Assembly: GCA_002205965.3 (NCBI GenBank)
Contig: NADL03000748.1
Span: 806,001 to 870,000, forward strand
DNA: 64,000 bases
Reading direction: 5' to 3'
Source of the DNA: Kappaphycus alvarezii
Taxonomy: Eukaryota; Rhodophyta; Florideophyceae; Gigartinales; Solieriaceae
Within the stretch, counting starts at the first letter, position 1; every line of letters begins with the position of its first letter. A program made the translations under genes and the position numbers. Shown piece by piece: positions 4,998-61,223 of this stretch. The notes below the pieces were generated by a model, which made no database searches, was not told the DNA's origin, and saw only the letters and a program-made list of their open reading frames with translations.

Positions 4998-5821
4998 GGG
5001 GGAATCTTTGGGTGTTTTAATGATTGAAAAATAAGGTCGGCTGTAATCCCGGATAAAATTGGTATGTTAAGGTACGGTCTTGCAATGTCACAACCTGCGC
5101 GTAAGTCCAACACCTACTGATCTTCGTCCTCAATCGAATCTGGCTCTAATGGGTCGGCGACGTCGCTATCAACGTCGTCGCCTTCCACAGAATTAGAGTC
5201 AGACCAATCCATCCAGCTAACCGGCACCCACAGGCGCTCAGTTCCATACGGACCCTGCAGAGGCAAACCGGTGGTCGTCTCCATGCTCGTAATAGCCTCG
5301 CCCGCGCGCCTAGTGTACGCCTGCCCATAGGCGACTTCGGGGTTGAATGTGATGGGGCGGCTTCCGAAGAAGATAAGGACTTCCCATCATCGACAGATGA
5401 TGAGCGTGAGGGGTTCGGTAGACATGAGGTGTTGACCGGTGGTTTGTTTGTTGTAGAGGCTGATGGTCCGGGGCTCATTTCCAAAAGGACCAAGTTGTTC
5501 GCCGTTTCCGAGCTCGTAATAGTCTCACCCGCGCGCCCAGTGTACGACTGCCCATAGGCGACTTCGGGGTTGAATGTGATAGGGGCGGCTTCCTGAGAAG
5601 ATAGGGGCTGCTCGTTACATGTTTGTGACGGGCGTGAGGGGTTCGGTAGACACGGAATATTGAGAACGTTAATGGCCAAGTGAAGAGCAGCAAAGTGCCG
5701 TCTTACGCGATGTGCCAGCAGTGCGATGCCCGCCAAAAGGGGGGAAGAAAAAATCCACAATCACAACCGTGGCGAGCCATTGGTGTAATCGCTTGAAAAA
5801 CTTCCGCTGTAAGCGCGATTA
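4998..5821. mobile_element. Insertion inside the left terminal repeat of the Tc1 element
   Basis: The right terminal repeat reads ACTCAAATGAATTGAG continuously. On the left the same sequence is interrupted after ACTCAAA (4997) and resumes with TGAATTGAG at 5822. The inserted DNA has no obvious terminal repeats or target duplication. It carries a coding fragment with a relative at 19.3-19.7 kb, so it is probably a piece of another repeat family. Confidence 0.8.
5114..5760 (-). pseudogene. Unknown repeat-family coding fragment with internal duplication and acidic tail
   Basis: The reading frame opens at 5760 with a hydrophobic stretch. It then has two copies of a ~150-base unit (about 5511-5664 and 5285-5430), both encoding CLPNPSR...SSQEAAP or SSSEAAP followed by PEVAYGQ or its frame-shifted form. 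After a one-base frame break the product continues as YGTERLWVPVSWMDW and ends in an acidic tail (EGDD.DSDVAD...EDEDQ) at 5114. The same TERLWVPVSWMDW signature with an acidic tail is found on the plus strand at 19,550-19,740. The family and function are unknown; no enzyme motif was seen. Confidence 0.55.
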
Positions 5822-6022
5822 TGAATTGAGAAAAATATTAAAATAAGCCAGATATATTGTGTACCACAAAAAACGTCTTTAGAAGCTGAGTAGAACAGCA
5901 GCATTTTTTAAAAGAAAACAAAAGACAGTACGTGCGGGAATAAAAACTGTGATTTTACCGGTGCAAAAGTATAGACTCGATCACATTTATTCTCAAACAA
6001 TAAGCCTTTAGAGGTCTTAATA

Positions 6023-7128: not shown

Positions 7129-7316
7129 TTTGAGTCTATACTTTTGCACCGGTAAAATCACGTTTTTTATTCCCACACGTACTGTCTTTTGTTTTCTTTA
7201 AAAAAATGCTGCTGTTCTACTCAGCTTTTAAAGACGTTTTTTGTGGTACACAATATATCTGGCTTATTTTAATATTTTTCTCAATTCATTTGAGTCTATA
7301 CTTTTGCACCGCACTG
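7129..7316. repeat. Right terminal inverted repeat of the Tc1 element
   Basis: 188 bases, inverted copy of 4970-4997 plus 5822-5980 with few mismatches. Outer and inner copies of the sub-repeat lie at 7289-7310 and 7129-7150. Confidence 0.9.
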
Positions 7317-13974: not shown

Positions 13975-16794
13975 TCAAATGTCCATATATCGATAGTCCA
14001 CTCCTCCGGAACTCTCAACCACAGATCCATCCCCTAACCTCAGCGTAACCTGCACTCCTCCACGCCCCGCTGGCACTTCACACTTGAAAGATCTCCCATC
14101 CCCGGCAACTTCACTCACGGTCACACATGCCGCATCGCCAAACAGCGCCGTTGGGTCATTGCCCAAATTCTCTCCCGTTACTAGGACCACGTTCCCTCCC
14201 GCTCGCGGTCCGCGGAACGGCATGACCGCCGTAAACATCGGCAGTATTCCTACCGTGAACTGCGGCGTCAGCATCATAATCTCCGCCTTGTACACCCGTG
14301 GCATCAGGATGTGTCCCCATGGCGACATTACGATCGACAACCCAGAGCTTGGCCACAGCTCATCTGGTCCCGCTCGTAGATCGCCTTGCGCATTCAGCCG
14401 TACCCGGAACACCTTCCCGGCAGAGTCTTGCGTCGAGTACTTCGAGCATAGTATATCCCCCTTCAGTTCACCGCCAAAGGTGTTCGCTGTGTACTCCATC
14501 ACTCCGTTTGTACTCGACTCAAACAACGCAATTGGTGCCTGGTAGTTTCCTTCAGACGGTTCCCCAGGGTATCGGAATCGGCATTGTTCTGGATCCGTGC
14601 GTCCTCGATTACGATTAGGGTGGCCCGCATATTTCCCTTCAAGAACCTTCCCCAGTTTGTCATCCAAATTCTCCCCCTCCAGAAGCTCATGCGTGGTGCA
14701 ACTAGTGCTCATGTCCCCAAACCAACACTGGCCCCATTGTCCGTCGCATACAAAAACCCGTTTGAGTGGATGTTAATCCCAAACGAGTTTCGCCAACCAG
14801 ATGAAAAAACCTCCACGTCACCGCTTGCCTGCTCTGCTTGCCTCGGATTTCCCCTGTTGGTGTACGTGATCATACCATCAAATCCTGGCCTAGTAACATC
14901 CGCCACTAGCGAGGCGCCTGAAAGCGGATTCTCGTCAATCCCTCCCAGAGGAGAGTCCTCGACGTTGTGACCAGCGTTCGTGAATCCACCTACTTGAATG
15001 TGCAGCTTCCCTTCATGATCAAACACTAGACCGTTCACCCATGATCATGGTTAGACACAGGTAGCCCGGTAATCACTGGTTCTTCCTCCCTTTGCAAGCA
15101 GTATCCTTCGTAATCTTTGCGGATCCGCAAAATTTGGCCATTCGCCCACGCGTCAATCTCCGTGAGCTTTCCTCACGTTTCCAGGCCAGAACCGACGCCG
15201 ACACATATAATCTGACCTCAGAGTCCATGGGGTTAAAAGCGAGCCCCAAAATTGCTAGAAACAACCCTAATTTTGGCGATGTGCACTTGTCAAAGACTTG
15301 CATGCGGCTATTTGCTGCAAATGAGTGCACCTGATTGTTAATAGCAGAGGCATAGTACCGATGGTCAGGCCCGTAAACGATACCGGTAATGAGCTCAAGC
15401 TCCAGAGGCTTGCCGTCCTCAGTGACACGCGACTCGCGGAACTTGATGGGCGGGTTTCCCTCTGTCGAAAACTGAAACTGAACTGCATTCGAAGTGCCCG
15501 CCTGATTGGACGCCGTCACATCTACAACCTGAGCCCTGTCCGATGACGGCACAGTTACAAATACCTCTGTGTCTGTTGACAGCTCGGAATCAACTTCCAG
15601 CTCCTCTTCTCCAAATTGCACAGTAACTCCATTAAATAACCCGATCCCTGTGATCTTTGCGACCCCGCCTCCGTCCAGCGTCGAGGAAATTGGGTCAATG
15701 CCCGTGAGCACTGGTAGCACTTTTGACATATCGTACTCAATATTTCCTCCTCCCCTTAACAAATCTAGTTTCGCGCCGGCGGAATTCTTGCGGTGGTACA
15801 AAATTTGGACCAAATGCTGCCCGCATCTAGGTCAATGGTACCCTCAGTCGTTGTCAAGTCTGTATTTGAGCTTTCCGCGACTAATTCGTCCCCAACCAGT
15901 ACTCGAAGGGGCCCAAAATGCTCGACCTCCAACGTCAACGCGTCCCCTGCCGTCTCAACGTAGAACAAGCAGCGCACTTGAAATTCAGTGCCCCTAACGT
16001 TTTCCGGGAAATCCCCGTCATCCTCAAACTTGACTGCATCCGTTGGTGCGGCAAATATAGGCTTGATGCCCTCCTGCAAGCTGTCGTCAATGGTGAACCC
16101 ACGAGTAGACGGCTCATAGTAGTAACAGTAGGCACCATCTGTCACCGGCCTCTCAACAATGACCGTAGTGTAGTCGGTATGGGAATCGCGATAGTTGTCA
16201 GTCACGGTCAAACCTAGCACAGTCCTTCCCACCGGGAGGACAACCTCCGGCTTGGCGCCTGTGGCCAACTCCTCACCCGTGTCCTTGTAGAACCATATCA
16301 TGGAAACAATCTTGCCGATGACAATCGGGGGACCCTCATCATAGAAATGAGTATGAGATCTGGAACCATCCAAGTGGACATTAGCAACGCCGTCGCCGTC
16401 ATAATCGACGAACCGATATTGAAACCTGGGACGGCATGGCTAAGATGATCAACCAGGGATAGGTTACTACTGGTTACGATAGTAGTTGTGACAGTCGAAG
16501 AATCGGTGCCCGCGGTAGTGGCAGCAGTAGTGGTAGCGGTAGTGGTAGCGGGGGCAGAAGTGGGTGAATCAGGATCTGTGGTTGACGGAGAGTTGGTGGT
16601 AGTGGTAGGAAGGAGGATGATGAGCTGCTGGTGTCAGATGCGGTGGGATTGCCGATGGAAGCGGAATTGCTGTCCGAGACGCCATCAACAGCGCGACGAA
16701 AAGCAGTGAAGTAAATGACAAGGCCCGCAACTGCGGCGATGACGATGGTGGAAAATACAAAGCCGATCCAGAGGACCTTGGCTGAGCGCTTCAT
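13975..16794 (-). CDS. Anchored PKD-PA14-IPT-propeller-IPT protein, gene B
   Basis: Complete paralogue of gene A, 941 residues if six one-base losses (near 16,610, 16,425, 15,821, 15,170, 15,039 and 14,733) are allowed. The start at 16,794 gives MKRSAKVLWIG and a single membrane segment (residues ~8-30), then a Ser/Thr/Pro stalk (to about 16,450). A PKD domain (VDYDGDG...; about 16,430-16,160), a PA14/malectin-like domain opening GAYCYYYEP (16,145-15,770) and an IPT/TIG domain (15,700-15,450) follow. Next is a propeller resembling soluble glucose/sorbosone-dehydrogenase or HHIP-like proteins (FRESRVTEDGKPLELELITG..., NHDHG.NGLVFDHEGKL, GWRNSFG; 15,430-14,330), then a final IPT/TIG (14,240-13,990). 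Likely outside the cell or in the secretory path, binding carbohydrate. No cofactor ligands could be confirmed. Length divides exactly by three after the six corrections, arguing for an intact gene. Confidence 0.8.
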
Positions 16795-24899: not shown

Positions 24900-24904
24900 G
24901 TTTG
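24900..24904. repeat. Target site duplication GTTTG (left)
   Basis: Five bases directly before the left LTR, repeated at 30,881-30,885 directly after the right LTR. Confidence 0.9.
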
Positions 24905-25118
24905 TGAAATGATTGAAAGTTCCTTTATTCTTGCCTATCCTGTCTTAGGCCAAGCGTAACCTATCGTTGCCCCTTTTGCCACGCACACTCGACACAGTGC
25001 AGTATATATACTGTACTGTACCGGGTAGTGGGTATACTGTACAGTGTCAACCCTACATTAGCTGGGGGGATACAGCACAGCATCTCTCCAGCTCAGCAGT
25101 GAGCCCGCACAGTCCACA
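24905..25118 (-). repeat. LTR (3' LTR of the element)
   Basis: 214 bases, TG...CA. Contains a TATATATA-like run adjoining GTACTGTACCGGG, one of the dispersed GTAC palindromes. Confidence 0.93.
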
Positions 25119-25525
25119 TGCCCCGCACTCAAAGTGCGACACGGGCGCACAAGTAGGCAAGTCCACCCCCTAATCACTCCACCACTGTACCACCCTACCA
25201 GCTTGCCACGGCCACCTCCACCCCAACCAACGCCAACCTATCGGCTACTCAGACCCTGCGACACGCCCTCAACCATACTTGCCTGCCTCTTGAGAAGAGC
25301 CAACGTGCTGTTTAAACAGCTCGTGTACGCGTGGCGTGCCCCTCTTGGCGTGTCGTTGCAACCACCTTCCTGTAGACCATCTTCACCAGATCATCATCCC
25401 CACTTCTGTAGTCGCAACACCCTCCCGTTCGCCCCAGGCATCATCTTCCCATTGCACCTGGCTTCTCCATGCTCGTCATCCATCCCCTTGCCTTGCCCCA
25501 TTTTCGACTCCCTCTCCGGCCGACT

Positions 25526-25999
25526 ATGGCCTGCACATATCAAAAGGCCAGCTTGAGCACAGGGGGAAGAGCCCCACGTAAGGCTATTGCCACAAAAGCG
25601 GCCCGAGTTCCTCGCTCCGATGCTAGAGTGTGGTCCCGCCCCGAAGTTTTAAGACTCCGAGGATGTCAAGATATCTAGAAGATAGTCTACCGTAAAGGAA
25701 GCCCGTTAAAGTATGCCGTCTACCGTACTGGTTTCCCCTGTCCCATCGTGAAGAACGAGGAAGAGCACAGGGCTCTCTTCGGTCGTCACATCACTGCTTT
25801 CGCGCGTTATTACGCAGGCCGAGAGTTCACGAAGGCTTATGCCTACCGGCTTGGCTTGACTGAGCCCTTGGAAGATCCTGAACCATACTCCTCTGTCCCG
25901 CCCTCTTCATGGTACGTACGGTCGGTCTATTGGCACACGGTGCCAATGTATACTGCGCCATCGACGACAACACTGGTGAGGAGCATACAGTGTTCTTGA
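25526..25999 (+). pseudogene. Histone H3-tail-like ORF inside the retrotransposon
   Basis: The ATG at 25,526 opens a protein whose first 26 residues after Met align without gaps to the canonical H3 tail: 18 identities, including the blocks STGG, APRK and ATKAAR. Lys4, Lys9, Lys14 and Lys27 are replaced (Y, L, R, V), whereas Ser10, Arg17, Lys18, Lys23 and Arg26 are kept. After RPEV.R.R a TAG at 25,676 interrupts the frame, which then continues to 25,999 with YRKGSPLKYAV (perhaps the alpha-N/alpha-1 region of H3) and a part I cannot align to a histone fold. It lies antisense to gag-pol between integrase and 3' LTR. It could be a captured, decaying H3 gene or a tail mimic. A frame at 25,909-26,436 (AIDDNTGEEHTVFLN..) and another at 26,412-26,669 follow on the same strand with unknown function. 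Confidence 0.6.
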
Positions 26000-26699
26000 A
26001 TACGATGGCATTCGATGGGTTCTCTGGGGAATGCGACCCGGCCGTAAATGGAAATCAGCTTGTCCTGGGCAGACAAGACCGCCTTCAGACCATTGACAAC
26101 ATACATCTATGGTGCCAAAGGTACCCCGATCAGAAATTGAAGCTCTCCTACACGCGTTCTAGAGGCCCCCGTTTGGATCCAACTCAGCACCGTTGCCTTC
26201 CTCTCCGGCCAGTCAAATTCGGAGACCAGACGGACGGTTGCATTGATGCGTCCCTTGGTAATGCCCTGTCTGAGCATGGAGAGTCTGCTCAGGCCCTTCA
26301 TTGGGTGTCCGTTTTCCGTGAAAGAGCCGCAAGTACCCGGAACGACCTCACCCAGGGCGGCCGTGTTTGTAGCTTGAATGACGCCAGAAGGTTTTCCCGC
26401 CTCGTAGCCTCGTGCTCCAGAACTGTCTTTCACTGAACCCGCCACTCGCCTCCGTCCTAAGTCTACCGCCCGGGATATACCTAGCCACTCTCGTCGGTTC
26501 GCACGGGGTCAACCGCTGCGTCACCATCAACGCGATCAGTCGCCGACTTATCGACCCGGCCGAAGAATTCTCGTTAACGTTCCCCGCCGACGCTTTGAAG
26601 GATTGCGTGGGGTGCATCTCCGAATTTTACACCGTCTGCGAGGTAAGGCGCGTCGTGCTCCTCGATTGAGCTCCCAGCAAGCGCCTACGTCACCGAAAA

Positions 26700-26936
26700 G
26701 GGTATATTAGGACTAATAGGAGGAGGGAGGGAAAGAAAAAATCTGAGGGTCATTGAAGTTCCCATGACGCCAGCTGACTCGCCCACCTTGCGGTCCAGGC
26801 CCGAGCAACGCGCCTCTGAATGTCCCCAACCTCTTCATCTGCATCCTGTCCCTACTTCTGATTCGGACTCCCTCCCGCTTCTCTCGTCCTTCGTTCCTCC
26901 TTCTTAAATAAATTTCCTTGATGACCTAATATACCC
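26700..26936. repeat. 237-bp segment with perfect 12-bp inverted ends
   Basis: GGGTATATTAGG at 26,700-26,711 and CCTAATATACCC at 26,925-26,936. The interior holds purine-rich and TTTAAATAA-like stretches, LTR- or MITE-like in look. It separates the antisense ORF region from the integrase end. It could be a nested MITE or a decayed solo LTR; no target duplication was seen. Confidence 0.55.
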
Positions 26937-27019: not shown

Positions 27020-30000
27020 TTACCCGGCATGGTCCGTAGTAAAACGACTCAAACGTTGGCCACTTCCGAGCCTCACTGAATGCTGCCCATGCGCCACTAG
27101 CACTTGGTCTCCAAGCTCGAACCGTTTGACCTCCCCCTTAGCCTTGCGCGGAACACGCGACTTGTCCGCTACAGCAGCCCTCACGCTAGCTTCCCCCAAC
27201 ATCTCGACGAGGCGGTGACTTGGATTGGCTTCGACCAGCAGAGCTACCGCGTCGCTTTCCATCATCCTCGGCTCGATCCCATACATTAATCGGAACGGCG
27301 AGTTGGCGTCCCCGCGATCACGTCGGCTATAGCCGTACAAGACGTTCGGCATAGCCTCCTCCCAGTCGCCTCTATTCTTCACGAATGACCTTTCGATTGC
27401 GTGCTCAACAGTCCCCACAATCCTCTCGGCCCTTCCATTTGCCATAGAGGCGTACGGGAGGACGGCTTTCCAATCGATCCCGTGCTTCTTCATAAACTCC
27501 TGGACAGAAGCAGCCATGAAAGCCATGGCGTTTTCCGAAAACATCCTCGCGGGGGCCCGAACGGCTCGATGATTTACTTCTAGATGAACTCGATAACAAC
27601 ATAGGAGGTGGAGCTCTCCGTTGCCCAAGCTATTGGCCAGCCCGTCCTGTGGTCCCCACAATTAAAGCAAACCTCTTTCCCTTCGGAGATGGCTTGAAAG
27701 GGCCCGCAAATTCCACTGAAAACGTTTCAAACAACCCAGTAAAGGGTGCTCTCCGATTCGTATGATAAGTTGGTAGCTTTCGAGCATGTTGACAGCCCGC
27801 GCAAGCTTTGACCGTTCCGATACACCCCGGCCACCCAAATCGATCCCTCGCGAACTTTCTCGTAGAAACAGCATCCCAATGACCGACGTCATCCTGGAAC
27901 GTTGTCAATATTTATGCCCGCTGCCCGATCGGCGGAACAACGCGCATTCCATCCTTCTCCCGTCGGAAAAGAGTGTCAATACAGATCATGAATTTCTTCG
28001 CTTTCCTTCGGATGCCATTCTTCTTCTTTGGGTCCGTTTTCTGAACCCTTCACCCGCCCACAAACCTCGTTCTGTCCAGTAGGTCCGGCTCTTATCCAGA
28101 TAATTTCGGGTCGTCCCACTGGACCGTCGCTACGAGGCCCTTTGTGTCCTTTTCTTCCCTTGAAGCCTCAAATTCTATTACGGTTCTGCAGGAGAGATAA
28201 TCAGCCGCCCCATTGGCCTTTTCAAGCCTATACCTAATTTCAAATTTGTACTCTTCCATCAAATTTATCCACCTCGCCAACCTCCCATGTATATCTTTCC
28301 TCTTGAAAGCCGTCTGAAGGGCCTGATGGTCCGTATATACCACGAATGGCCCGTCGGACGACACATACACACGAAATTTCGTGAGAGGGAGCACTACAGC
28401 TAGTGCTTCCCTTTCGCTCGTTTTCTTCCATTGTCTGGGAGAAGATGACCACGTCATCCACATAAACCATGGCGAAGGGTAGATATCTGAGAATTTCATC
28501 CATCATTTGTTGGAATGTTGCAGGTGCGTTCATTAACCCAAACGGTATGACATCAAACTTGTACGTTCCATACCTAGAAACGAACGTGGTCTTCTCCTTG
28601 CACATTTCGGCCATCCTTACCTGCCAATATCCGGTATACAGATCCAGAGTTGTAAAGACCTTCGAACCAGACAGATCGTCGAACAGCTCCTCGATTTTCA
28701 GTAGTGGCCAGCGGTCTGGCTTCATCACCCTATTCAACTATCGGTAATCGACACAGAACCGGGGCCTTCCGTCTTTCTTCGTGGCAATCACCACCGCAAA
28801 GGACCAGGTGGACCTCGACGGCGTGATGATTGAAGCTTCCAGCAATTCAGTCGCCTTTTTCCTTACCAATTGGTTGTGCTTCGGTGGCATTCGGCGGGCT
28901 TTCGAATGTATCGGAGTCTCATCCGTCAGCTCTAAAGATTGTACCACCGGCACCCGAGCCGCTCCAGATCATGTATAACCCACGCTATCACGCCCGTCTC
29001 CTTGAGAGCGTTCACCAACTTTTTCTGGTCCTCCTCCACGAGATGTATCAACTTCGAGACGAGAAACGCGGCGTGATCCGCTTCCTTGTCTTCCTCGTTA
29101 GGCCCCTCCTCCACCAGCAGGCCCTCTAGGTCGGGCTCATATGGTTGCTTTTTCAAGATCGCCAGCACAAATTCATTCTCAATGTCCGACCCACCATCGC
29201 TGCCGCCTGACTTTGAAGAGGACGAAGCAGGAAACTACTCTCCATCAGACTCTCCAGGGGATGTGAAATCCTCACTATCAGTCCGCATCCCGTGAATCAC
29301 CGGGGGCTCACCGAGTGGCGGTAAAAGCGCCTTCTTCCTTCCAACTGCCAGAGTAATCTGCTGCCTCTCGTAATCCAGGTTTGCCTGCATAGATTCCAAT
29401 GCAGGACTGCCAATAATGGCGTCGAATGGCGCGTTCCGCACCACCAAGAAGCCCAGAGGCACCACCAGGGTTCCAAAGGAGACTGGAACTTTCTGTACAC
29501 ACCCGATAACTTCGGCAGCCGTTCCATCGACCTCGGGGACCTGACGATCCGTAGCCATCGGAGCGAGTGACGGCCTCTCGCAAAAGTCTCAGGACATCAG
29601 GTTTGGAACTGCACCCGTGTCCAACAGGGCGTGTGACTCCATTCTATAAGCCTTCACGGCAACGACCTTCAACCGACGAGAGACTTCGGAGTGACTTATC
29701 ATGGACGCCTGAGTCACTGTGACAGTCTTGGAAACCATACGCTTCAATTGCTTCCTTGCTTCATCCGCATCTCCACGGAGAAGCTGCTCGAAGTTCATTC
29801 CCGACGAGGCCGAAGCCAGTTCTGCGACCACATTATACTTAATTACGTGGTCCTAGAGGGCTCTCGATGTCTTCTGTGTCTTTCTTGCCTTATTATTCCT
29901 CTTCCTTGGCTCCGACACGACCATCGGCGGGCGAACGACAGGGGCCTTATTCATTAGCGCATCGATGTCCATGACGTTGTCCCTGCGTCGTTTCGGAAGG

Positions 30001-30664: not shown

Positions 30665-30880
30665 TGAAATGCTTGAAAGTTCCTTCATTCTTGCCTATCC
30701 TGTCTTAGGCCAAGTGTAACCTATCGTTCCCCCTTTCGCCACGCACACTCGACACAGTGCAGTATATATACTGTACTGTACCGGGTGGTGGGTATACTGT
30801 ACGGTGACTGACCCTACATTAGCTGGGGGAGATACAGTACAGTATCTCCCTAGCTCAGCAAGGAGCGCGCACAGCCCACA
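30665..30880 (-). repeat. LTR (5' LTR of the element)
   Basis: 216 bases, direct copy of 24,905-25,118, TG...CA. Confidence 0.93.
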
Positions 30881-30885
30881 GTTTG
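30881..30885. repeat. Target site duplication GTTTG (right)
   Basis: Matches 24,900-24,904. Confidence 0.9.
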
Positions 30886-43424: not shown

Positions 43425-43612
43425 AAATTCAAAATGGTACCAAATGTCATACAAAGGTATCCCACAATGACAAATTCAAAATGGTACCAAATGTCATACA
43501 AAGGTATCCCACAATGACAAATTCAAAATGGTACCAAATGTCATACAAAGGTATCCCACAATGACAAATTCAAAATGGTACCAAATGTCATACAAAGGTA
43601 TCCCACAATGAC
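43425..43612. repeat. 47-bp minisatellite, four copies
   Basis: The unit begins AAATTCAAAATGGTACC and ends CCCACAATGAC. Four head-to-tail copies are almost identical. Because 47 is not a multiple of three, all frames are visited and the array is not a protein repeat. Confidence 0.95.
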
Positions 43613-46600
43613 AAAAGGATACAGGTAAAAGTGACTCTCACATCCAACAAAGCAAACAAATCGCAAAAGGCTGCATACTGGGCTCCAATTTGCATGCGGA
43701 AAGGCGGGGCCAAGGTATATCAGCCCCATTCAGAGAATTCCAAACCAAAAAACCAGCCATTAAAATGGGCAAGTGTTTGGGAGAATAGTCTTGATTGTGA
43801 AAAAGCGGAAAATGAGAAGTAAATGGCGGGGGAGGAAAGTTTTAGAACTGAAACTGGGGGGATAACATGGAATCTAGGAAACGGGTGAAGATGAGAGTGA
43901 GTTTGAGAGTAATCAGGACAGTGTCGAGAGGATAAGTCTACGGCTTACAGTGGAAGGGAAGAATGGGGCACAGAGAAAGCTGAAGGAAATTCGGGAGAGG
44001 ATTTTGAATATTTCATTATCGATTCAATGATGTTCACTAACGGTTTTGCCCAGAATAATGCCAATTTTGTCGCTGAATGTTTGTATGTTACAGCAGAAAC
44101 AGTGAGGGCCTTCTCAAGTACCACAGAAGTTTCGAAAAGTCGTTGAATGTACCATGTGCTACGGGAACGGTTCTAAGGTATGAAAACTTCATCCTTAGAA
44201 ACAGAGAGCAAATAATGGGCATCTCCGGATTCTGAATAGTCGGTTCGAGTTCTAGGAAAGTCTATAGCAGGGGTGAAATTGTTCAAAAATTGCTGCGGTG
44301 ATGTTTGTACGCATGAATATTCGGGAGTGGAAGTGCTAAAAGGTGGCCCAAGTTCCCGCAAAAAATTCTCCTGTACATGCTTGCTGCCAAGGGGGGCCTG
44401 TACCTGTCCAGTAGGTATCTCTAATGTACTACGGCTCAGTGATCATCAGAATCAGAGAGGAGTTGGATGAGAGATATTTGTAGAGATTTATTCATAAACT
44501 GATAGTTTGCAAAGAAAATTCTCGAAATCTTAAGCAGACCGGCCAAATAGGGCGAAATTTAGGTATTGTAATGAGTTCTTAAAGAAAATTTAACCCTTCT
44601 GTTCTTCACGATTGCTGTTTGATGGACCCGCTAGCTTTAATTTGAAGTTTATTAGCCGTGTTTGAGTTGTTCGTTTAGTTAGTCAACGTGGTTCTCTGTT
44701 TGAGCACTACTTGACTGTAAATTTCAATCAAACGTTTACTTTGGGATCTGAAGAAGTAATTGCTATAATAATAACTATTGAATACTTGAACTTATGCGCT
44801 GCTGCTTTTTTCGAGTAGTTATGCGTATCAAAAGTGTTTAAACTTTCTACAAAGTAAAAGAATATCTTCAAGTTAATTCATTTAAGAGGATTACCTATTA
44901 ATCTGGTTGTATATCCATCACAAAAGTTGTTACTATCTTTCATAGCAATTATTTGCTCGCAGTCTTTTCAATTTCATCTGAAAAGTTATTTCAACTTCGA
45001 AACTATACAATATCTCGGAATCATCTACCAAGAAAAGCCTCTCTTGAGACGGCACTATCGACCATCATTCGTTCCTGATACTTGTGTGAGCCTTTCAAGA
45101 TGATTAAAAGATTCTCTCACAATCTGTAGATTCTTTTAACGCTACAGACCTGTTCATTACAATTGCATTTTTCGTATAGGAAGCTACAGCAAAATTGAAA
45201 ACGTTGTTGAACGCAAACGCAAATAACTTCCTCGGACATTGCTGACTGTTTAACTCGTCTGCTGTTGTTATGATACCTCAAAATATATATATAGTTGCAA
45301 CAATTTATTTCAATTAGCGAGAACTGCAAAGCGGAATAGTTGTAACAAGGGGCCTTGGTGGTTGAAGAACGATTAGTCTTAGAAACAAATTATTCTAAAT
45401 TTTAGAAGTCCATTTTAAATCTTTGGAACGAGTGCGGTTAGAAGTCTCGTACCTGATCAAGTTAGTAATTTACATTACTACTTGGGAACGTGCCTATTTA
45501 AAGATTCTCTCTGTGGCTTGTGCACGTTGCGCAATTTCAAAGAGGTAGTCAGATTTCGGGTTTATCAACCATAAAAGTCGCATAAACATTGGTAAGGTTT
45601 TTTCAACTTATTATCTTGCAGCAAACGCCCAAATTATGGCGTCTAGACTACAACAAAAATGAAGTCTCGTGTTCCCTTTGAGGGCCAAAAGGCTGAAATT
45701 GGATTGCACTACTGATTTTTCTTCATTTCGAACCTTTTTTTCTTCAGTTTCTATAGATTTCTGAAGTTATTGGGTCATTAGCTGGGGAAAATACCCACAT
45801 AGCTCTCGATGAAAGTTGGGTACCGTGTCTCTGTGAAACGGGTTCGTGGTAAAATCTTCGTGGTGGTGCATTCCTATCATTTTATCACACAATCCTACTG
45901 CATTGCATAAACCTCAGAGTAGTTGAAGCAGATTCGTTAATTGACCTGAGTCGATTTCAATTTCTGGTAGAACTTCCTTCATGATACCAATTATTGGAAG
46001 CGTCCCATAGTATAGAAGATACTTTTACGTTATATCAGTGTTCCATAAGTAAAACCCGAAGATTGAGGCCAATGCTGAAAATTCAACGGATTTTTGTTGA
46101 AAGTTCGAAGATGTATGCACGAGTATGTTCTTCATTCTTTATATATAAACACCTATTTCATAGATTTTTTTTTTACTTGACGATCTAATATGTGTAAAAC
46201 CTAATTTGGAGCAAGAATTGACATAAAAGAACTTCGCATCGGTTTGAACTCTTCATAGAAAATAATTTTAGATATTTCTCTCTTGATTAATGAATAAATG
46301 TCCCTTTTTTCACCACCATTTATCTCAGCGGTCTTAGAACGCTCATAGCTTCCGTTCGATCTCCCTCCGTACAATATTAAATACCCATCAGGTGACTTTG
46401 ATTGGGAAGATGCCCGTCAAAGTTTAGAAAAGAGTGTTTATTTCAGAATCTCCCAGGCAAGGCTTTACTTCAGAGATGTTGAACTTTTTGCCTATTATGT
46501 TTGGCTGAAATATTATGAATATTACGGCGACAAAAATCACGTAGACCCCTAATATAGCCAATATAGCCAGCAATTTGCTTCTGGTGCGAAACGAGAACTG

Positions 46601-53122: not shown

Positions 53123-55310
<2,188 letters not shown>

Positions 55311-58160: not shown

Positions 58161-58265
58161 TGGCCTACAGTTGAATGAAGCCCAAAAGGAATGTTTTTAG
58201 GGCCTCTACCTCTGTGCCACGATTCAAAAAAAAATTGTCTCATTAGGATCTGCACTGTCCACACT

Positions 58266-61223
58266 ATGTCTCCTCGAATTCCTTCCAGCACCAGCTTTGC
58301 ATTTGTCACATCGTCGTTTGCCCGCCCGGTTTCGAGACTTGCGCTTGCTACCCGACGTAGTCGTGTTACTTGTTTCAACGTCGCTACCCATCGCGCGACA
58401 CAACAGTTAGTGTACAGAAGGGGATCAGCATTTCTAGGACGGTTTGCACATAGTGTGAAATCTAAAAGTGTTTCAAACACAGCCATGCCGTTCGAACAGA
58501 ACTCGGCGCCGGTGGCATCTGCTGCCAGCGTTGCTTCCGTCGAGCCAATGACGGTCGTGGAGGAGCCAAAAGTCAAGTATTTGAAGGATTATACCCCGCC
58601 GTTGTATTTGGTAGAGGACACAAATTTGGATTTTGATCTGGATGACGACGGTTTGCATACAGTGGTCACCGCGAAGCTAAAAGTAGTACCGAGTTGTGAT
58701 GCGGGTACCCCATTTGAACTCGATGGGGAGGAGTTGAAGATTGTGGAGGGAAGTTTGAAGGTGGACGGGCGTGTTCTGGGGGATGATGAATGGCGATATG
58801 ACGCAAAGGAGCAAAAGTTAATTGTTAAGGAAGTACCGAATGAGCCATTTGTGTTTGAGAGTGTGGTTACCATTAAGCCGGCAAAGAATAGTTCCTTGGT
58901 CGGCTTGTACATGAGTGAGGGTGACTTTTGTACGCAGTGTGAAGCAGAGGCGTTCCGCAAAATCACTTTTTATCCTGATCGACCTGATGTGATGGCCAAG
59001 TTTCGGGTGAAGATTCAGGGAAGCATAGAAAGGTTTCCAATATTGTTGAGTAATGGCGACTGCGTTGAGGAAGGGAAAGAAGGCACAAAGCACTGGAAGG
59101 TGTATGAGGATCGCTTCCCGAAACCGTGCTATCTATTTGCATTGGTTGCTGGCGACTTGAGTGTGTTGGAGGATCAATTCGTCACCATGAGTGGGAGGGA
59201 AGTCAAGTTGAGAATTTTTGTAAAAGGAGAGGGGAGGTAAGGAAGTGTGAGCATGCGATGAGGAGCTTGAAGAAGGCAATGAAATGGGACGAGGATGTCT
59301 ATGGCTTGGAATACAATTACGATATCTTTAATATCGTTGCCGTGCCTTCTTTCGTGTTTGGGGCCATGGAGAATACATCGCTGAACATATTTAACTCGAA
59401 ATATGTTCTCGTAAGCCCGGAGACTGCTACCGATCTTGACTTTAACAATGTCGAAGGCGTCGTTGCGCACGAGTACTTTCATAACTACAGTGGGAACCGA
59501 GTGACCGTGAGTTCTTGGTTCCAATTGTCGTTGAAGGAGGGGCTAACAGTCTTCAGAGATCAAAGCTTTTCTGCAGACATGAACTCAGAGACGGTCAAGC
59601 GTATTCAGGATGTCACCATTCTGCGCGCAGCACAGTTCGCAGAGGATGCGGGTCCTATGGCTCATCCCATTCGGCCTGTCTCTTATATCACGTGTAACTC
59701 GTTCTATACCGCTACTGTCTATAACAAGGGTGCAGAGGTCATCCGCATGCTCAAGACGATTGTTGGACCCGAAGGATTCCGCAAGGAACAGATATCTACT
59801 TCAGTCGGAATGATGGCAAAGCCGTAACATGCGAGGACTGGGTGCAAGCCATTCAGGATGCTAATCAGCATATTGACCTTTCTCTGTTTCAAAGATGGTA
59901 CGGACAGGCAGGGACACCTTGCGTGACTGTGGACATGAAGTATGACGAGGCAGCTTCGACGCTCACTCTATCATGTGAGCAGGCCATTCCGCCAACCAAA
60001 AAGCAACCTGAGACATTACCGGTGTTCATCCGATCAAGATGGGGCTTATCGGCCCTGACGGTCAGCAGGTACCTGTGGATATCGGGGATGGATCTGAGCC
60101 GAAGCTGACAAAGGTGCTCAACTTCCAGGATGCGAAGACAGACTTCACATTCCACAATGTACCGAAGGGCACGCTTCCTTCTTTGCTCAGACAATTTAGT
60201 GCCCCTGTCAAGCTTCAATTCAAAGGAGGACTAGAGCCGGAACAGTTGGCGTTTATTATGGCCAACGACGTGGACGAATTTTCCCGGTGGGACGCCGGCC
60301 AGAAGCTTGCTCTCAACTTTATTTTGGAGTGCGTCAGGTCCGATAGTGATGACTTCAGTGAAGTTCCTAGTTCCATTATTGAGGCGTTTAGGTCGACTCT
60401 CGTTAACGAGAAAATTAATGCTGCTCTTCGTGCAGAGGTGTTTAAGTTACCGCCCGAGTCCGTCATCACCGAGGAAATGGAGGTGGCAGATCCGGTTCGG
60501 ATTCGAGCCGCGAGGAAGCATGTCATTAAGCAGATTGCAACCGCACTTGAAAGTGAGTTCTCTGCGATAGTAGATGCAGGAATGAAGGATACTGGCGAGT
60601 ACACACTTGATCCAGCTTCACAAGGACGGAGGGCATTGGTGAACGTTTCAATTGCGTTCCTGGCTTCCTTGCAGAAGAGCGAAGTGTACGCACTTTGTCT
60701 GAAGATAGTTGAGAGTGCTAAGAACATGACAGATGTAGATGCCGTGCTGCGTGTGCTGTCATCGAGTGAGTCCGAAGAGAGAGATATTGCGTTGGCTAAG
60801 TTCTATGAGAAGTGGCAATCGACACCCCTAGTTGTCGATAAGTGGTTGGCGATGCAGTCATCCTCAACCCGGGACGATGTGCTTGATATTGTGAAGAAGC
60901 TGACGGAACACGAGGCGTACAAAGAGACAGTCCCCAACTCTGTGTATGCGCTGATTGGTGGGTACGGTCGGACCAATGTGCACATCCCCACCGATGGAAG
61001 TGGATACAAATTCATGGCGGATCAAGTAATTCGACTGGATGCGATTAGTCCGCAAGTTGCTGCCCGCATGGCAAGAAGCTTTACTCGTTGGCGCAAGCAC
61101 GACAAGACCCGCCAAGGTCAAATGGAGAACGAACTAAGGAGGATCAAGGCTACGAATGGCTTGTCAAAGGACGTGTTTGAGGTAGTCAGCAATTGTTTAG
61201 ATCAAGCTGATCAGGCCTCTTGA
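58266..61223 (+). CDS. pepN: M1 metallo-aminopeptidase, PepN type
   Basis: Zinc aminopeptidase (alanyl/broad specificity) of the bacterial PepN group, also found in plants and algae. The start at 58,266 gives a Ser/Arg-rich, acid-poor presequence of ~70 residues ([20 protein letters not shown]) suggesting plastid or mitochondrial import. A second in-frame ATG at 58,485 (MPFEQ) would give a form without it. Motifs: GAMEN (59,360-59,374), zinc site HEYFH (59,468-59,482) with the third ligand Glu in LKEG 18 residues later, and the catalytic Tyr in [12 protein letters not shown]. The C-terminal helical domain runs to the stop. Three one-base losses (59,231-59,234; 59,785; 60,030) split the frame. 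With these restored the protein is 986 residues, E. coli PepN length plus presequence. Convergent with the acyltransferase gene. Confidence 0.95.

Follow-up and report, generated by a model that had tools for sequence, protein, structure and literature searches.

A histone H3-tail-like N-terminus in an antisense accessory gene of Ty3/gypsy retrotransposons from the red alga Kappaphycus alvarezii, and its possible role against silencing

The window, i.e., the whole stretch of 64,000 nucleotides analyzed here (Kappaphycus alvarezii assembly GCA_002205965.3, contig NADL03000748.1, positions 806,001 to 870,000 of the forward strand), carries on its minus strand an element bounded by two long terminal repeats (LTRs) of 215 bp each, which have TG..CA ends, are 91% identical, and are flanked on both sides by the 5-bp target-site duplication (TSD) GTTTG (Table 1). 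The pol pieces between them lie in the order protease, reverse transcriptase, RNase H, and integrase (PR-RT-RNase H-INT), which is the Ty3/gypsy order. In this decayed copy the reverse transcriptase and RNase H pieces score above the Pfam cut-off and the protease and integrase pieces below it; a sister element (C453) is above it with RVT_1 (E 4.2e-30), H2C2 (E 9.1e-11), and rve (E 3e-10). The carrier is a Ty3/gypsy LTR retrotransposon, and between its integrase (which ends at 27,020) and its 3' LTR an accessory gene is placed on the opposite strand. An earlier note, made from the letters of the window, had described a histone H3 tail encoded antisense to gag-pol inside such an element, and its frame, strand, and coordinates were all recovered as it gave them.

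Table 1 Features of the retrotransposon and its antisense accessory gene (window coordinates)
Feature	Position	Strand	Evidence or remark
Target-site duplication GTTTG, left	24900..24904	.	direct reading
3' LTR, TG..CA	24905..25119	-	216 bp aligned with the 5' LTR, 91% identity
H3-tail-like N-terminus of accessory protein, residues 1-27	25526..25606	+	tblastn, phmmer, coding constraint
Accessory gene antisense to gag-pol	25526..26716	+	end approximate, mapped from the stop of copy L009
Later piece of accessory gene, other frame in window copy	25909..26436	+	open frame
Integrase core piece	27020..27661	-	weak rve_3, E 0.049
Integrase zinc-binding (H2C2) piece	27630..27908	-	weak, E 0.018
RNase H piece	28092..28499	-	RT_RNaseH, E 5.7e-14
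Reverse transcriptase piece	28240..28737	-	RVT_1, E 4.6e-18
Aspartyl protease piece	29235..29558	-	weak, E 0.014
5' LTR	30665..30879	-	repeat comparison and edge reading
Target-site duplication GTTTG, right	30880..30884	.	edge reading

The open frame at the start of the accessory gene begins with an ATG at 25,526 (+), meets an in-frame TAG at 25,676–25,678, and ends at 25,999; its N-terminus is MACTYQKASLSTGGRAPRKAIATKAAR. Aligned with histone H3 without gaps, 19 of 27 residues are identical when Met is included and 18 of 26 after Met, the latter being the figure of the earlier note. With filters and composition correction off, tblastn of H3 against the window matched the tail at E = 2e-6, and a phmmer search of the window frame against PDB chains had its best match at E = 1.1e-4, full H3 chains following at about 3e-4 to 1e-3. 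The tail of this copy keeps S10, R17, K18, K23, and R26 and has lost K4, K9, and K27, as the earlier note had reported, with Y, L, and V in their places; across the family the loss holds for K9 and above all for K27 but not for K4, which is kept in 47 of 69 tails. The frame itself is real as the one that encodes the tail, but it is not the whole gene, as homology to other copies runs to about 26,716, and 25,526–25,999 is the 5' part of a gene of about 1.2 kb and about 400 residues. Further downstream, the stretch 25,894–26,394 is 80% identical to residues 111–278 of P0002, a protein that also served as a search query. The earlier note had argued for decay of this copy from the TAG, and this stood: besides the stop at 25,676, the window gene is broken by frameshifts near 25,935 and 26,400 (located by reading), and it is a dead relic.

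Other copies were searched for in the genome (336,021,096 bases in 884 contigs), which together with one tail-less metagenome fragment provides all of the evidence on the family. Three phycobilisome matches in this genome support its red-algal origin. The ORF is present in other copies, where the earlier note had proposed to look for it: the DNA search with 25,526–25,999 gave at least 40 matches, which fall at 39 places (44 candidates, of which 40 were scored), and the protein search with P0002 gave at least 117 (107 of 871 candidates scored). The 39 loci, window included, were read, with L027/L030 and L031/L032 being identical duplicate pairs; copies were collected through the accessory gene itself, and elements that lack it lie outside the count. 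Of the 38 other copies, 20 begin to match the window element at its LTR edge (24,900–24,908). Integrase pieces were detected by tblastn at 20 of 39 loci, window included, always on the strand opposite to the accessory gene and at no locus on the same strand; the fetched flanks were about 1.5–2 kb, so loci without an integrase match say little. In each of the distant elements C453, C458, and C826, too, the accessory gene is adjoined on the other strand by reverse transcriptase, RNase H, and integrase. Another copy (L010/L051) consists of an LTR, the accessory gene, reverse transcriptase, protease, a gag-side region, and an LTR, with no integrase match. No copy was seen to combine both LTRs with a complete pol and an unbroken accessory gene, whole elements having been read for very few copies.

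Several copies deviate in layout. L015/L048 (the G000:C745 copy) has two LTRs that are 91% alike and retains the accessory gene and part of the integrase without the rest of pol, and this short derivative is possibly a non-autonomous form. In some others (L013, L021, L023, and L027 with L049) the accessory gene is followed by an LTR edge in inverted orientation, an arrangement that suggests nested insertions or palindromic products of reverse transcription; L021 is itself an inverted duplication, arranged head to head.

The accessory gene is clearly under coding constraint. Over tail codons 2–28 of the 39 copies, variation amounted to 0.128, 0.111, and 0.279 at codon positions 1, 2, and 3 (within-codon permutation, p 1e-4). 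Pairwise dN/dS, which the earlier note had suggested computing for the tail, was 0.318 over the first 32 codons and again 0.318 over codons 33–150, then 0.415, 0.52, and 0.573 towards the end, i.e., decay was not uniform. For the whole gene it was 0.42, the lowest of the six frames; the two other forward frames had 1.03 and 1.15 and the reverse frames 0.95, 1.19, and 0.52. The values for the coding frame were practically unchanged when two identical duplicates were removed (0.317 for the tail, 0.419 for the gene). The reverse frame at 0.52 could be taken to mean that the constraint comes from the RNA or from a role of the sense strand, with the protein reading incidental. We consider this very unlikely, since that frame is taken to reflect forward codon phase, and the forward frame has the lowest value of all six and encodes residues that are H3-like.

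From the P0002 matches, we fetched 12 distant genes together with 29 short stretches starting near the N-terminus (P0002 residue ≤ 40). A tree built from 25 body pieces gave a support of 1.0 to each of clades B, C, and D and also to the branch separating them from clade A. Among six representatives, between-clade identity was 13–21 of 27 residues in the tail (48–78%) and 30–42% in the body, and the H3 tail is common to the four deep clades (A–D). Long frames exist among these genes, L064 being open from ATG to stop (421 residues) and L065 over 446 residues, up to the end of the fetched stretch. Within clade B, pairs with L075 gave dN/dS values of 0.21–0.37 and all other pairs 0.48–1.3, a contrast that we attribute to selection acting on the active lineage and to neutral decay of copies once they had been inserted. 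Outside this genome, no homologues were retrieved with P0001 at E ≤ 10 (26 candidates) or with P0002 at E ≤ 1 (5547 candidates), while the profile of alignment A1 matched one metagenome fragment at E 2.1e-18 (8000 candidates scored), namely P0003, which has 154 aa and is without an H3-like tail. In viral contigs queried with L064 there was no confirmed match, and one stretch fit a pattern.

The simpler explanation offered by the earlier note was a captured host H3 gene that merely decays within the element. The stop and the frameshifts of the window copy are in line with it, and so is a profile of 32 rows whose match to PDB H3 (E 2.8e-10) covers residues 1–52, slightly past the tail. We nevertheless reject it as hardly tenable, because the body is without an H3 match, the tail is common to four deep clades (and has a dN/dS of 0.32), and the codons agree with those of host H3 at chance. 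In the window copy, aligning the H3 core in a frame-aware manner to 25,607–26,110, i.e., 3' of the tail, gave a score of 37 (shuffle mean 38), which 34 of 60 shuffles reached as well; the body of about 400 residues has no Pfam Histone match that would indicate a histone fold after the tail, and the genome has 26 PF00125 matches, of which none fell at an element locus that was read. At residues identical to the intact host H3 gene L053, 326 of 1111 codons were the same (29.3%), with 28.9% expected, hence the likeness has outlived synonymous saturation, and the tail has therefore been held by selection rather than being a recent capture.

The body of the accessory protein gave no Pfam match at all, and the best hit of a PDB sequence search was at E 0.51. 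Three columns of alignment A1 are largely conserved among the rows with a residue there (C250 in 19 of 21, H342 in 12 of 14, and D355 in 11 of 13), a combination that suggests a papain-like cysteine peptidase. On this basis, the C-terminal domain might perform the actual job of the protein, and the tail might be its address or a substrate-like pro-segment, for example if a peptidase or deubiquitinase has to be brought to chromatin. Like the tail, the body is under constraint (dN/dS 0.32–0.57 by segment), as such a function would have it, but the likeness to peptidases is a reading of conserved residues in a body that has neither a Pfam match nor a PDB sequence match better than E 0.5, and we regard this explanation as quite improbable. 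The C-terminus is rich in K and R in several copies, which is perhaps a nuclear signal.

In order to describe the tail residues across the family, 80 loci were considered and the 69 ungapped tails scoring ≥ 60 were kept; none of the 11 that were dropped had K at position 27. Lysine is replaced at position 27 in all 69 tails (V in 41, M in 7, F in 6, A in 5, I in 3, S and T in 2 each, P, D, and G in one each), although the pairwise match has its edge at this residue and the replacement may thus partly be the end of homology. At position 9, L is found in 48 tails and M in 10, with K in 7 and Y, F, N, and E in one each. The other sites are retained to different degrees: Met0 in 50, K4 in 47 (R in 8), Q5 in 61, S10 in 58, T11 in 61, K14 in 8 (R in 49), K18 in 39, K23 in 61, and R26 in 51. 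The probability that K9 and K27 would by chance be the two most lost of the six lysines is about 1 in 15, and both are classical repressive methylation sites of H3. Clades differ in these respects. K4 is kept in 29 of the 39 close copies; in clade A (39 copies) R8 is mostly S (30/39) and T6 mostly K (31/39), which alters the K9 site. All seven K9 tails belong to clade C, mostly with A in place of R8, and in this clade K4 is mostly replaced by R and K18 by G, R, or L. As examples, the tail of L067 (clade B) reads ARTKQLARLSTGG..ATKAARVAR, that of L066 (clade C) ARTRQTAAKSTGG..AKAARIS, and that of L072 (clade D) ARTKQLARLSTGG..ATKAARMS, the last being the H3K27M context. The H3 register holds from the start codon onwards, and Met before Ala is usually removed, so the mature protein would begin with a free ART.. 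end.

A free end of this kind could also serve a positive recruiter, in which ARTKQ and the acetylatable K18 and K23 bind activating readers or writers (of the WDR5, PHD, or acetyltransferase type), or it could anchor the complex of the element on chromatin for integration; the loss of K9 and K27 would then just keep the mimic from repressive marking. The retention of K4, Q5, K23, and K18 in 47, 61, 61, and 39 of 69 tails speaks for such a role. Another link to chromatin would also make sense in elements without a chromodomain, the domain that members of the chromovirus branch of Ty3/gypsy have at the integrase C-terminus, and none was found in the integrase pieces of the three elements scanned (window:27023-27661 at E ≤ 10; L105:2539-2865 and L109:1621-2496 at E ≤ 1), a scan that a divergent chromodomain could escape. 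However, clade C departs from the expected residues at both K4 and K18, and the kept reader sites leave the mostly hydrophobic residue 27 unexplained, and we judge recruitment to be rather unlikely.

We favor instead, with a rough probability of 0.55, that the antisense accessory gene encodes an H3-tail mimic that counters silencing as a decoy or inhibitor of repressive H3 methyltransferases. The accessory protein would enter the nucleus, where its tail would engage chromatin enzymes whose usual binding partner is H3; having no methylatable K27 and mostly no K9, it would act as a decoy or substrate-site inhibitor of repressive H3 methyltransferases, the most likely target being E(z)/PRC2 and the mode that of EZHIP and of the K27M and K9M oncohistones, and the silencing of the element would be countered. 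This reading is preferred because K9 and K27 are the most lost lysines and their substitutes are non-methylatable and mostly hydrophobic, and because K9M and K27M peptides act on SET enzymes, an E(z)-like gene is present in the host, and H3K27me3 lies on repeats in a second red alga. The host gene carries CXC and SET within a single ORF, and its match to EZH2 has E 2.9e-59, whereas the SET group ranking second is at about 1e-21. A scan for the Pre-SET family of SUV39-type enzymes gave no match, and neither did its controls. In that second red alga, 50% of the repeats are reported to be covered by H3K27me3, which goes with lower expression (PMC5405695); the SET domains of Clr4 and G9a are described as trapped by a K9M peptide (PMC5030085), and PRC2 as blocked by EZHIP through a K27M-like peptide (PMC12713659). 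Several points speak against the anti-silencing reading: V is the commonest residue at position 27, the K9 site is altered in clade A and K9 is kept in clade C, K18 is kept in only 39 of 69 tails, the loss of just these two lysines has the 1-in-15 chance given above, position 27 is at the edge of the match, no complete copy was seen among the few whole elements read, most clade B pairs have a high dN/dS, and a single genome supplies the evidence.

A narrower proposal is that this lineage, independently of cancer and of EZHIP, evolved the oncohistone trick, in which Met, Ile, or Val at position 27 and mostly Leu or Met at position 9 would jam E(z)/PRC2 and the H3K9 enzymes and so relieve the element of its own silencing, and that this was kept over four clades. 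We advance it tentatively and with the odds somewhat against it. A review notes dominant action in cell lines only for K27M and, less, for K27I (PMC6562757), and with V27 being the commonest residue (41/69), a strict oncohistone mechanism at this position fits the 10 of 69 tails with M or I.

The accessory protein resembles the H3K27M/I and H3K9M oncohistones in that a hydrophobic residue stands for a methylated lysine (ATKAARMS in clade D, partly AARIS in clade C, and M9 in 10 of 69 tails); oncohistones, however, are full histones that enter nucleosomes, and no histone fold was found in the accessory protein. The influenza protein NS1 is reportedly a viral histone mimic through a few residues at its C-terminus, and it is likewise a parasite protein that imitates a histone tail, whereas here 17–21 of 27 residues match H3 from the N-terminus (six representatives). 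The DNA transposon VANDAL21 is said to encode VANC, a DNA-binding anti-silencing protein that acts on DNA methylation and has no histone likeness; an anti-silencing protein of the mobile element's own is what we propose here as well. EZHIP/CATACOMB is likewise a non-histone protein, and its H3K27M-like peptide inhibits PRC2 (PMC12713659), but it is encoded by the mammalian host itself and its motif is short and C-terminal, while the retroelement mimic copies the whole tail from residue 1 and has V more often than M at position 27 (41 vs. 7 of 69).

It is known that LTR retrotransposons can carry antisense accessory ORFs, the function of which is described as unsettled (PMC7264820). In plant Gypsy elements (Grande gene23, RIRE2, and Retand; aORF-3R) they occupy the same place between pol and the 3' LTR in the same antisense direction, and some of their proteins are nuclear, but these have other domains (e.g., TRP28) or none known (PMC7264820, PMC11963269), and the word "histone" is missing from the main text of both articles. 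No retroelement-encoded H3-tail mimic appeared in the titles and abstract openings searched, a scope that leaves out most subscription papers and bioRxiv. Histone mimicry, known from viruses and mammalian EZHIP, and antisense ORFs of LTR elements are thus joined here in a preserved retroelement gene whose sequence itself points to a likely target, and the function of such ORFs becomes directly testable with peptides. If the proposal is true, a parasite has arrived independently at a K-to-hydrophobic inhibitor of H3 methyltransferases, which would bear on whether PRC2 guards red-algal genomes against transposons.

Elsewhere in the window, an M1 aminopeptidase gene at 58,191–61,223 (+) is formed by three adjacent ORFs (Peptidase_M1_N, Peptidase_M1, and DUF3458), and a DEAD-box RNA helicase with a glycine-rich end spans two ORFs at 53,566–55,310 (+). 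Three ORFs on the minus strand (27–1043, 13,978–14,712, and 15,076–15,729) have IPT/TIG domains and appear to be copies related to each other. Two repeats were also observed, a tandem repeat of 47 bp in about four identical copies within an AT-rich stretch (43,425–43,615), and an inverted repeat of 158 bp with 97% identity (5821–5978 and 7132–7289), perhaps the ends of a short DNA transposon.
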